Source of the DNA: Planctomycetaceae bacterium
GTDB taxonomy: Bacteria; Planctomycetota; Planctomycetia; Pirellulales; PALSA-1355
DNA length: 42,588 nucleotides
Reading direction: 5' to 3'
Assembly: GCA_003153375.1 (NCBI GenBank)
Contig: PLYM01000172.1
Span: forward strand, 1-42,588
The translations under genes and the position numbers were made by a program. Positions 12,199 through 38,129 of this stretch are shown piece after piece. Below the pieces are notes generated by a model, which worked only from the letters and a program-made list of their open reading frames with translations, made no database searches and was not told the DNA's origin. Positions within the stretch are counted from its first letter, which is position 1; the number at the start of each line of letters is the position of its first letter.

Positions 12199-13794
12199 AT
12201 GCTCACTGCCAAGCAAACCGCCCCCGCCGTCAAGAAAAGCGAGCCTCGGATGCCGATTCGAGTTTTCAATACGCTGTCGAAAAACAAGGAACCGCTCGAA
12301 CCGGTGAAGCCGGGGCACGTGGGCATCTATCTTTGTGGGCCGACGGTCTATAAGCCCAGTCACATCGGCCACATGGTCGGGCCCGTGATCTTCGACGCCG
12401 TGAAGCGCTACCTGGCCTACTCGGGCTATCAGGTGACGCTAGTGATCAACATCACGGACGTCGACGACAAGCTGATCAAGGAATCGCACGAGCGAAAGAT
12501 GTCGATGGCGGCGCTGGCCGAGGAGATGACGGCCGACTACATGCGCAACCTGGCCGCGATGGGCGTCGATTCGGTCGACCACTTTCCGCGGGCGACCGAC
12601 AACATGGACGAGATCATCAAGCTCACCAGCTCGCTCATTGCCAAGGGCTTTGCCTATGAGTCGGACGGCGACGTCTACTTCGACGTGGCCCGCGATCCGC
12701 AGTATGGCAAGCTGAGCAATCGCGACGTGGCCAGCATGCTGGGCGAGGGAGGCGAGATGGCCGAGCGCAAACGTTCGCCCGCCGACTTTGCCTTGTGGAA
12801 GAGCGCCAAGCCGGGCGAGCCCTCGTGGGAAAGCCCCTGGGGCAAAGGCCGGCCGGGCTGGCACATCGAATGCTCGGCCATGAGCCGCCGCATCCTGGGC
12901 GAGAGCTTTGACATTCATGGCGGCGGACTCGATCTCGTCTTCCCGCATCACGAGAACGAGATCGCGCAGAGCGAATGCTGCCACGGCAAGCCGATGGCCA
13001 AATACTGGATGCATAACGGCCTGATGCAGGCCTCGAACCAGGTGGGCAAGCTCGGCGGCCGGGCCACGCGCGACGCCGATGCCGGCGATCAGCAGACCCA
13101 GGAAGCCGGCAAGCTGGGCAAATCCAAGGGCGCGTCGGCCTTTGCCGACCTGTTGAGCCGCCACGCGCCCGAGACGATTCGCTTCTTCCTGCTGTCGACG
13201 CACTATCGCCGGCCGATCGATTTCAGTGAAGAGCGTATTGCGGAAGTGAATACGGGGTTGGAGCAATTCTATCGCTTCTTCAAGCGCTACGAACGCATCA
13301 CGGGCAAGAGCTTCTACGCGATCGACCAGGCCCAGACGCGTCCGGCCGGGGATTTCGAGCCGGGCGACGACGCGACCTTGAAGCAGATTGCCGAGCATCG
13401 CCGCAAGTTTCTCGAGGCGATGGACGACGATTTCAACACCGGCGGCGCCGTGGGCGACCTGTTCGAGCTGGTGCGGGCGCTCAACAAATTTGCCGACGAC
13501 GAGAAGCTGGAAAATCGCCAGCCCGAACAGCGCCAGCTCGATGTCCTGCTGCGAGGAGCGCTAACGCTCAGGGAACTGGGAGCGACGTTGGGGCTGTTTC
13601 GCGTGCCGGCGGTCAAGCCAACGTTGGGCAACAACGCGGTGGTCGACCACTTGATGGGGCTGGTGATCGAATTGCGAGCCGGCGCGCGGGCCAAGAAGGA
13701 TTTCGCCACGGCCGACCGGATTCGCCAGGTGCTGGGCGAAGCCGGCATCTCGCTGGAAGATCGGCCCGGCGGCACTGAATGGACGCTGAAATGA
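12199..13794 (+). CDS. cysS: cysteinyl-tRNA synthetase
   Basis: Attaches cysteine to tRNA-Cys. Class I motifs are clear: HIGH at residues 55-58 and zinc ligands Cys46, Cys225, His250 and Glu254 at the same spacing as in E. coli. The KMSKS loop is altered to KLGKS (305-309), and about 23 extra residues, rich in Gly, Asp and Gln, lie between MHNGLMQ and this loop. The anticodon-binding and C-terminal domain (LEAMDDDFNTGGAVGDLF, then AKKDFATADRIRQVL) is normal. AAAGGA precedes the ATG at 12199. It overlaps ruvC by four bases, so it is in the ispF-cysS-ruvC operon. Confidence 0.97.
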   Translation: MLTAKQTAPAVKKSEPRMPIRVFNTLSKNKEPLEPVKPGHVGIYLCGPTVYKPSHIGHMVGPVIFDAVKRYLAYSGYQVTLVINITDVDDKLIKESHERKMSMAALAEEMTADYMRNLAAMGVDSVDHFPRATDNMDEIIKLTSSLIAKGFAYESDGDVYFDVARDPQYGKLSNRDVASMLGEGGEMAERKRSPADFALWKSAKPGEPSWESPWGKGRPGWHIECSAMSRRILGESFDIHGGGLDLVFPHHENEIAQSECCHGKPMAKYWMHNGLMQASNQVGKLGGRATRDADAGDQQTQEAGKLGKSKGASAFADLLSRHAPETIRFFLLSTHYRRPIDFSEERIAEVNTGLEQFYRFFKRYERITGKSFYAIDQAQTRPAGDFEPGDDATLKQIAEHRRKFLEAMDDDFNTGGAVGDLFELVRALNKFADDEKLENRQPEQRQLDVLLRGALTLRELGATLGLFRVPAVKPTLGNNAVVDHLMGLVIELRAGARAKKDFATADRIRQVLGEAGISLEDRPGGTEWTLK

Positions 13795-35393: not shown

Positions 35394-36220
35394 GCCAAGG
35401 ACTCCACGGTTTCGCGAATTCGTAGCAGACGCGCCAATAACTCGCCAAATTCAGCCATCGGAACCATATTCGGCCCATCGCTCGGAGAGGTGTCGGGCGT
35501 CGGGTGGGTTTCGAAAAACAATCCGTCGGCGCCGACGGCCGTGGCCGCGCGGGCCAACGGCTCGACCATCCGGCGATTGCCACCGGTCGAGCTGCCCAAG
35601 CCGCCCGGCTCCTGCACGCTGTGGGTGGCATCGAAAATGACGGGCACCCCCAGGGCCTGCATTTCAGGAATCGAGCGCATGTCGTTCACCAGCCGGCCAT
35701 AACCGAAAAAGGTGCCGCGCTCGCACAATAGGATATTACGGCAGCCGGCGGCCGTCAGTTTGCCAACAACGTGCCGCATGTCGCCGGGGGCCAGGAATTG
35801 GCCCTTTTTCACGTTCACCGCCCGACCGGATTGAGCGGCGGCCACGAGCAGGTCGGTCTGGCGAGCCAAAAAGGCGGGAATCTGCAACAAATCGCAGACC
35901 TGGCCCACGGCCGCGGCCTGCGTCGATTCGTGGATGTCGGTCGTCACCGGCAGGCCCGTGGCTTGCTTCACGTCTTCGAGAATGCGCAGGCCTGTTTCGA
36001 GGCCTGGCCCGCGAAAGGCGTCGAGACTCGTGCGGTTGGCCTTGTCGAACGAGGCTTTGAACACCAGCGAAATCGGCAGTCGCTCGGCAAGCGTGCGCAA
36101 GTGCTCGGCGATGTGCAGCGTCAGGTCACGCGTTTCAATGACGCAAGGGCCGGCGATGACCAGCAAGCGCGAACCACGGCCGCAAGTATAGGGGCCTATC
36201 GTGGCCTGTTTCTCGCTCAT
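35390..36220 (-). CDS. kdsA: 3-deoxy-8-phosphooctulonate synthase
   Basis: Condenses phosphoenolpyruvate with arabinose 5-phosphate to make Kdo 8-phosphate for the LPS inner core. Diagnostic segments are [76 protein letters not shown] and [11 protein letters not shown]. The Cys in the first and the Cys-Glu in the CERG segment suit a metal-dependent type. The ATG at 36220 overlaps the lipid kinase stop (ATGA); a longer frame reaching 36502 is not needed. It is translationally coupled on both sides. Confidence 0.96.
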
Positions 36221-37203
36221 CCGGCTGCCCCCGCGCGCTGCGGCACGGGCGGTGTGAGCCCGAGAGCAGTCAGACGGTCCAGCGGCGCCAGCAGCGTCAC
36301 GCGCGCCGGCAGCACGTCGATCTCCAGCGGCAGGAACGCGCCAGGGTCGCCGTCGAGCTGATAGGGCACTTGTTCGTCCGATGCGATGCGCACGCGCGTG
36401 ACCCGCATGGTCTGGTAGTCGGAGAGCACGCGTTGCTGACGCAGCTTGACCAGCCCGACGTACATCAACCCATGCCACAACGAGCCGCGCTTGAAAACGC
36501 ACAAGTCGAGTTCGCCGTCGGTGGCCACGGCATCGGGCACCAGCTTCAGGCCGCCGCCGTAGTCAGGCAGATTGACCACGAAGGCCCAAGGGGCCCGGTG
36601 GGTCAGCTTGACCACGCTGGCGCCTTGCGTCGTTTCATATTCAATCTGCAACGGCGGATAGCGGTAACTGCGGATGGCCTCGAGGATCGGCCGGGCGTAG
36701 GTCCAATAGCTGATGTGACCGCCGCGGCGCTTACTGTGCAGGCGGTGCACCACGTCGGCATCGAAACCGCAGCTGGCCATGCACAGAAAGACGCGCCCGT
36801 TGGCGCGCCCAGCGTCGAACCGGGCGGTGGCGCCGGCCGCGACGACCGTGGCCAGGGCATGGGGGTCGTTGGTGAGGCCGAAGTAATTGGCCAGCAGGTT
36901 GGCCGTGCCGAGCGGAAAGACCGTCAGCGGCACGACGGCGTCGGTGCGGTTGACGATCTCGGCCACGGTGCCGTCGCCTCCGGCTGCCACGACCGCCCGC
37001 AATTGCCCCGCGGCACCAAGTTGCTGAATCTGCTGTTCGAGGGTTTGGAAGTCACGCACCACGACCGCCGTCAAGCCGTGCTGCTTGAGGCACTCGACCA
37101 GCTCAAAGATGGTTTCGATCCGATTGCGCGCGCCCGCGCCCGGATTGGTCAAGATGATGACGCGGTCGGCCGCGGGATGGACGAAAGAAATCCGTGACGC
37201 CAA
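36217..37203 (-). CDS. diacylglycerol kinase family lipid kinase (YegS-like)
   Basis: Phosphorylates a lipid such as diacylglycerol or an undecaprenyl-linked alcohol. The kinase signature is GGDGT (75-79) in [15 protein letters not shown], with NPGAG (20-24) for nucleotide binding, and [13 protein letters not shown] follows. The C-terminal beta-rich domain ([34 protein letters not shown]) is also conserved. It overlaps kdsA by four bases and is first in the operon, which suggests a link to LPS or membrane lipid supply. Confidence 0.9.
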
Positions 37204-37842: not shown

Positions 37843-37858
37843 TGGCACTAGGGTTGCT
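37843..37858 (+). promoter_or_regulatory. sigma-54 (RpoN) -24/-12 promoter
   Basis: TGGCAC-TAGGG-TTGCT matches the sigma-54 consensus TGGCACG-N4-TTGCW at every fixed position except the seventh base, with the invariant GG and GC at exactly the canonical spacing; a C precedes the first T as preferred. Transcription would start near 37869. The expected number of TGGCAC-N5-TTGC matches in this window by chance is well below one. Confidence 0.65.
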
Positions 37859-37868
37859 TAAGGTGCTG

Positions 37869-38006
37869 CTCGACGAGCCCTCCTCCGGGAAGGTTCGTTC
37901 AAGACTGCGGCCCGTGGGGCCTCTGATGAATGTAGCGGGATCGTTACCTTGCCCCTAACCGTCCAGCAACGCCAAACGACTTTGGCGCATCAGAGGCCCC
38001 TTTTTT
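37869..38006 (+). ncRNA. putative structured small RNA, sigma-54 driven
   Basis: An inferred transcript of about 140 bases, from the start set by the -24/-12 promoter to a strong intrinsic terminator. The 5' part folds into a hairpin (CGAGCC 37874-37879 with GGTTCG 37892-37897, one G-T pair) whose loop contains CTCCTCC, complementary to Shine-Dalgarno sequences. The 3' part is a 13-base perfect stem (37916-37928 with 37988-38000) that encloses a second perfect six-base hairpin (37971-37986) and ends in TTTTTT. No protein frame of useful size lies inside; the longest ATG frame has about ten codons. It resembles a base-pairing regulatory RNA, but I recognise no named family. Confidence 0.5.
37916..38006 (+). 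terminator. intrinsic terminator with long branched loop
   Basis: GGGGCCTCTGATG (37916-37928) pairs perfectly with CATCAGAGGCCCC (37988-38000) and is followed by six T residues (38001-38006). The 59-base loop contains its own hairpin GCCAAA-CGAC-TTTGGC (37971-37986). The T-run shows it acts on the plus strand, although both flanking protein genes are on the minus strand. Confidence 0.75.
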
Positions 38007-38129
38007 ATTGCGCCTGGCGGTCGTGCTTCTTCATTCGTTCCGCTGCTTGATCTACGGAACGTGACCCCCGCTGGCAAGCATTCCCGCGCCTGGCAATCGG
38101 AGGGCTCAGCGATGCGGTCGATTGCCGCA

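Follow-up and report, generated by a model that had tools for sequence, protein, structure and literature searches.

A conserved RNA family of Pirellulales that resembles sigma-54-dependent small RNAs

Does the gap between two minus-strand genes of a planctomycete, in which a sigma-54-type promoter precedes a long stem and a run of T's, encode a small RNA, and what might such an RNA do? We addressed this question in a 42,588-nucleotide stretch of a Planctomycetaceae bacterium of the order Pirellulales (contig PLYM01000172.1), referred to below as the window. Planctomycetes are abundant, have an unusual cell biology and are Hfq-free in the genomes tested, and their small RNAs are almost uncharted; according to a 2022 survey, the entire PVC group has 8 annotated sRNA families (PMC9029176). 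A first-pass annotation of the window had proposed a sigma-54-dependent small RNA whose 5′ hairpin would block ribosome-binding sites. The analyses described below support the first part of this proposal and argue against the second.

The promoter, TGGCAC-N5-TTGCT (37843–37858, plus strand; TGGCACTAGGGTTGCT), matches the consensus TGGCACN5TTGCW exactly and is the sole exact match across the window. When one mismatch was allowed, the window contained 2 sites against 1.6 expected, the second being TGGCACATCGAATGCT (12859–12874, plus strand; one mismatch). The promoter is not significant from the window sequence alone; it is its conservation, presented below, that makes it significant. The promoter geometry places the predicted start at 37869, about 12 nt past the GC of the −12 box, and with the T-run as the end the predicted transcript spans ~140 nt (37869–38006, plus strand). 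It would open with a 5′ leader hairpin (37872–37899), predicted by folding, and continue into a conserved structured core (37905–38006), which is recognized by the covariance models R1 and R2 described below (98.4 bits, E = 1.1e-19). The core starts with a C-rich segment, GCGGCCCG (37907–37914; order consensus CUGGCCCG), that is conserved and predicted to be mostly unpaired. The adjoining closing stem consists of 13 perfect base pairs between GGGGCCTCTGATG (37916–37928) and CATCAGAGGCCCC (37988–38000), and T6 follows (38001–38006). Stem and tail are as the first-pass annotation had them, apart from the distance between the start and the 5′ arm, which is ~47 nt rather than ~60. The 59 nt between the two arms contain two more hairpins, hairpin 2 (37936–37968, limits approximate), whose apical loop is CUUGCCCC, and hairpin 3 (37970–37987; CGCCAAA/TTTGGCG), all on the plus strand. 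The region 37869–38010 folds at −60.1 kcal/mol (z = −4.2 versus shuffles).

A stem with a T-run would work as a terminator, and the element could in principle be nothing more than the terminator of a neighboring gene. The flanking genes both lie on the opposite strand, however, and the U-run occurs on the plus strand only. Since the stem encloses two hairpins, it is a long-range stem and not a simple terminator hairpin. We consider this explanation and that of a chance structure, both refuted by the conservation and covariation reported next, to be highly improbable.

A DNA search of 39 relatives recovered the core (37902–38014), at 72–95% identity, in many of these genomes, spread over the order, and did not recover the leader. 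Alignment A1, comprising 18 copies and 28 consensus pairs, was the source of model R1, which found the RNA in 177 of the 246 genomes of the order, with one match per genome among those listed; the matches cover 133/184 good genomes and 85/114 genera. Among 294 genomes drawn from across the phylum, R1 matched only in four, all of the same order. Of 20 genomes that had appeared negative, a more permissive search with the second model, R2, recovered the RNA in 2; the remaining negatives, many of which belong to family f15, were still negative, as were the genomes of other orders and classes tested. Weak matches in two genomes (G031 and G040; E ~0.05) resemble chance hits. The RNA is present in Lacipirellula limnantheis, Adhaeretor mobilis, Aeoliella straminimaris, Blastopirellula marina DSM 3645 and metagenome-assembled genomes of Pirellulales and other planctomycetes. 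The window's nearest relative also contains what is left of a second copy (L180; G001:C273:11148–11247), degenerate and with no intact terminator stem.

The predicted fold is supported by covariation. Among 79 homologues (alignment A2), all three helices covary: two-sided changes occur in at least one sequence at 23 of the 28 pairs, and two-sided cells number 281, compared with 65.6 ± 10.1 in shuffles. Paired cells amount to 96.3%, a value inflated by the fitting of A2 to the model structure, versus 27–44% when the partners were slid. In A1, which is a sequence alignment whose structure came from an independent RNAalifold prediction, 17 of 28 pairs show compensatory changes. Within A2, two-sided changes were seen at 9/12 pairs of the closing stem (98.8% of cells paired), 9/11 pairs of hairpin 2 and 5/5 pairs of hairpin 3. 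The T-run, too, is conserved among the homologues.

Is the promoter conserved along with the RNA? A GG-N10-GC site scoring at least 9/11 and lying no more than 120 nt upstream of the core was found in 84 of 91 homologues, against 8/91 in downstream control stretches and ~4.4/91 in shuffles; the other 7 have no good sigma-54 site inside the 120 nt. The site is present in 18 of the 19 families sampled, and both loci of the remaining family score 8; these counts enter related genomes as separate rows, and sequences from relatives are not independent of one another. Upstream of the core, the −24/−12 boxes are the sole block conserved in four close relatives, in which the leader has diverged. No other single observation argues as strongly for sigma-54 control as the persistence of the promoter next to a leader that is unrelated in sequence even in the closest relatives of the window. 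In addition, rpoN was found in the window's own genome and in 30/30 other genomes tested. Three outcomes would speak against a sigma-54-dependent RNA of this kind, namely GG and GC elements not conserved in relatives, stems free of compensatory pairs, and a genome lacking rpoN; in each case, we found the reverse. Judging from these sequence comparisons, the locus almost certainly encodes a real small RNA with a sigma-54 promoter.

Transcription by sigma-54 RNA polymerase depends on an activator, and we looked upstream of the promoter for places where one might bind. Imperfect 17-bp palindromes, of the types TGTCTCA-N3-TGAGACA and TGTWGCA-N3-TGCWACA, occur there in 60 of 84 loci, whereas only 2 of 84 downstream regions have one; the motif was obtained from these very loci, and the window shows no clear example. 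These palindromes may be candidate activator sites, or they could instead serve the promoter of the divergent kdsA gene described below. A perfect palindrome, TGTCTCATCTTGAGACA, is found at L007/L175, and L113/L179 are further example loci. When strict palindromes were used as a probe for other members of a regulon in 77 genomes, almost no sites were found elsewhere.

We then considered what the leader contributes. The first-pass annotation had described a 5′ hairpin exposing CTCCTCC, with a role in blocking ribosome-binding sites. The hairpin itself is predicted and does contain CTCCTCC (37880–37886), but the sequence is not simply exposed: one TCC pairs with GGA and part lies in a 4-nt loop, such that about half of the motif is paired in the window. 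Moreover, CTCCTCC occurs in only 1/85 leaders, as does CCTCC, and the leader has diverged even among the closest relatives. An anti-Shine-Dalgarno function of this loop is thus very unlikely. What is preserved is the folding, with predicted energies of −3 kcal/mol or lower in 77 of 78 leaders of at least 15 nt, whose sequences are unrelated. Conservation of the leader thus concerns its hairpin and not its sequence.

By contrast with the leader, two exposed segments of the core are nearly invariant in the 79 rows of A2: the unpaired 5′ columns, CUGGCCCG, and the loop of hairpin 2, CUUGCCC(C) (CUUGCCCC). In the 5′ segment, G5 and C7–C9 are invariant in 79/79 rows, and the mean unpaired probability is 0.61; in the loop, UUGCCC is invariant, and the mean unpaired probability is 0.94 versus 0.37 for the whole RNA. 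Both segments contain CUKGCCC, and we regard them as candidate seeds 1 and 2, respectively. At the f8 loci L103–L105, L107, L108, L110 and L112, the RNA has lost the 5′ GGCCCG and has a longer closing stem (AAGGUGGGG/CCCCACCUU), while the loop CUUGCCCC is kept. As this clade lacks CUGGCCCG at the usual place, the loop seems more essential than the 5′ segment.

The 5′ segment could have a different role, in a conformational switch. Its GGCCC is able to pair with GGGCC of the terminator stem (GGCCC-GYG-GGGCC), and the order of folding or a ligand would then set the choice between termination and read-through. The bases allow such an alternative hairpin in 98.7% of cells, and one compensatory change is seen (GACCC/GGGTC, L095). 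Its covariation does not go beyond that of shuffles, however, whereas the terminator stem itself covaries strongly; in 4 rows, stem position 14 changed while the 5′ C stayed, which breaks the hairpin. The f8 clade does without the 5′ segment, and no conserved downstream gene is available for read-through. We therefore judge a switch improbable.

The surroundings of the RNA bear on its likely mode of action. As described in the first-pass annotation, it is flanked by a potassium channel gene (TrkA type, convergent, downstream) and a lipid kinase gene (YegS/DAGK, divergent, upstream, 36217–37203; PF00781, PF19279), both on the minus strand. Next to the kinase gene, whose synteny is conserved, lies a kdsA-like gene for KDO-8-P synthase (DAHP_synth_1, PF00793; 35390–36502, minus strand), these coordinates being those of the longest open reading frame, which probably begins ahead of the true start. 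In ~70 of 91 loci, the RNA has kdsA as its conserved divergent upstream neighbor, whether or not the lipid kinase gene is there too, and the downstream side varies. This synteny argues for vertical inheritance and suggests a role connected with the envelope, through Kdo synthesis. No same-strand downstream gene is conserved across loci; thus, the RNA is not the leader of one gene. With a promoter and a terminator of its own, the predicted transcript has the makeup of a stand-alone small RNA.

The kdsA neighborhood recalls E. coli GlmY, which also has a sigma-54 promoter and which acts in envelope functions (PMC7073468); here, an envelope-precursor gene adjoins the RNA. The likeness does not extend further, as RapZ is over threshold in 0/26 genomes and there is no Rfam match. 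The absence of RapZ largely refutes an identity with GlmY/GlmZ, and we hold a GlmY/RapZ-type RNA to be most improbable.

We next asked which RNA-binding proteins the genomes encode. Hfq was found in 0/19 relatives, with control genomes positive, and CsrA is present in 3–14 paralogues per genome in the window's own genome and 18 relatives (L171–L174). An expanded CsrA set without Hfq is an unusual RNA-binding-protein landscape.

Under these circumstances, we propose the following mechanism. Sigma-54 RNA polymerase would transcribe the RNA from the conserved −24/−12 promoter in an activator-dependent manner. The transcript would open with the 5′ hairpin, whose sequence is free to vary and which might protect the 5′ end, and would continue into the core, where the closing stem of 12–13 bp, followed by U's, probably ends transcription and would enclose the two hairpins. 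The promoter, the hairpin, the core and its two conserved C-rich stretches predicted to be exposed (CUGGCCCG and the loop CUUGCCCC) are the sequence-supported parts of this scheme. In the subsequent steps, the pre-organized loop, aided by the 5′ segment, would pair without Hfq with several mRNAs at G-rich sites (GGGGCAAG / CGGGCCAG), in the simplest case near ribosome-binding sites, altering their translation or stability once the activator is on. Taken as a whole, this account of a stand-alone, sigma-54-dependent and Hfq-independent trans-acting small RNA that base-pairs via C-rich segments is the one that we favor, and we consider it reasonably probable.

A search for targets found none. In 8 genomes, AGGGGCAAG matched upstream of ATG 87 times and the reversed pattern 35 times, but the 30 matches examined were mostly intragenic, with no recurrent gene. 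Sites of the GGGGCAAG type near ATG were few and also mostly intragenic. Complements of both segments in the upstream regions of the divergent kdsA and kinase genes were at most slightly above shuffles. The csrA upstream regions of four loci left the main site unmatched, with one GGGGCA near a csrA start.

The main rival to the base-pairing account is a protein decoy, in which the two CUKGCCC segments would sequester an RNA-binding protein under sigma-54 control. Nearly invariant loops also fit protein binding, and the many CsrA paralogues of these genomes, together with the lack of Hfq, count in its favor. For Pirellula sp. strain 1, sigma-54 promoters of csrA have been reported (PMC12316311). 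Sigma-54-driven decoys are known in Pseudomonas, where CrcZ and CrcY are under CbrB and share with the present RNA the promoter type and a repeated exposed motif (PMC8657755). On the other hand, CrcZ sequesters Hfq-Crc, whereas Hfq is absent here, and the motif in Pirellulales is C-rich and has only two copies, or a single one in the f8 clade. CsrA, for its part, binds GGA, and an unpaired GGA is lacking in 50/85 RNAs and occurs twice in only 6/85; a CsrB/CsrC-type sponge for CsrA, with its repeated exposed GGA, is thus not supported. We know of no protein that recognizes GCCC loops here. Overall, a decoy seems rather unlikely, although less so than any other rival considered here. A wider formulation that leaves room for both modes, namely a single-copy, sigma-54-activated RNA of most Pirellulales that acts without Hfq and shows CUKGCCC twice, as a double pairing seed or as protein bait, possibly with an envelope (Kdo) link, is put forward tentatively.

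Returning to base pairing as the preferred reading, we compared the RNA with established small RNAs. Qrr and NrsZ are sigma-54-driven, trans-acting small RNAs of proteobacteria. They resemble the present RNA in the −24/−12 promoter, in an independent transcript of ~100–150 nt (predicted here) and in stem-loops with conserved exposed segments and a terminal U-run; they differ in that neither is matched here in sequence or structure by Rfam, in phylum, and in that Hfq is absent here. RsaE is a C-rich-loop small RNA of Gram-positive bacteria. RNAs of its type share the exposed C-rich loop and pairing without reliance on Hfq, but they are not driven by sigma-54, and the Rfam test revealed no sequence relation.

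With Rfam 15, the window and 20 homologous loci gave no family at the gathering cut-off. BjrC68 (RF02353) was the sole match for the window at a relaxed threshold; the two have a GGGGCC terminator stem in common, and the match, which scores 14.1 bits where the cut-off is 39 (E = 0.34), is at chance level and was dismissed. Our literature search of open-access papers found no description of the RNA, and the main text of a recent study of sigma-54 regulons, Planctomycetia among them, is silent on small RNAs (PMC12316311). These results are in line with the first-pass annotation, which knew of no such RNA in this kind of bacterium, and together with the core and compensatory pairs conserved in relatives, they identify a previously uncatalogued RNA, a new RNA family of Pirellulales that resembles sigma-54 small RNAs and lies outside the named families tested.

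An order-wide, single-copy RNA behind a sigma-54 promoter suggests a shared RNA-based regulator in bacteria without Hfq; if true, this would be the first sigma-54 small-RNA circuit described in Planctomycetota. It raises the question of how small RNAs act where CsrA has multiplied and Hfq is absent. The near-constant promoter of a one-per-genome RNA offers a direct experimental handle, and the cultured carriers Blastopirellula marina and Lacipirellula limnantheis make expression, rpoN dependence and targets testable. Among the homologous loci, the Rfam search at the gathering cut-off returned tRNA matches only, and a tRNA gene lies ~130–570 nt past the RNA in 8 of 20 loci (L009, L047, L054, L078, L089, L105, L108 and L114).
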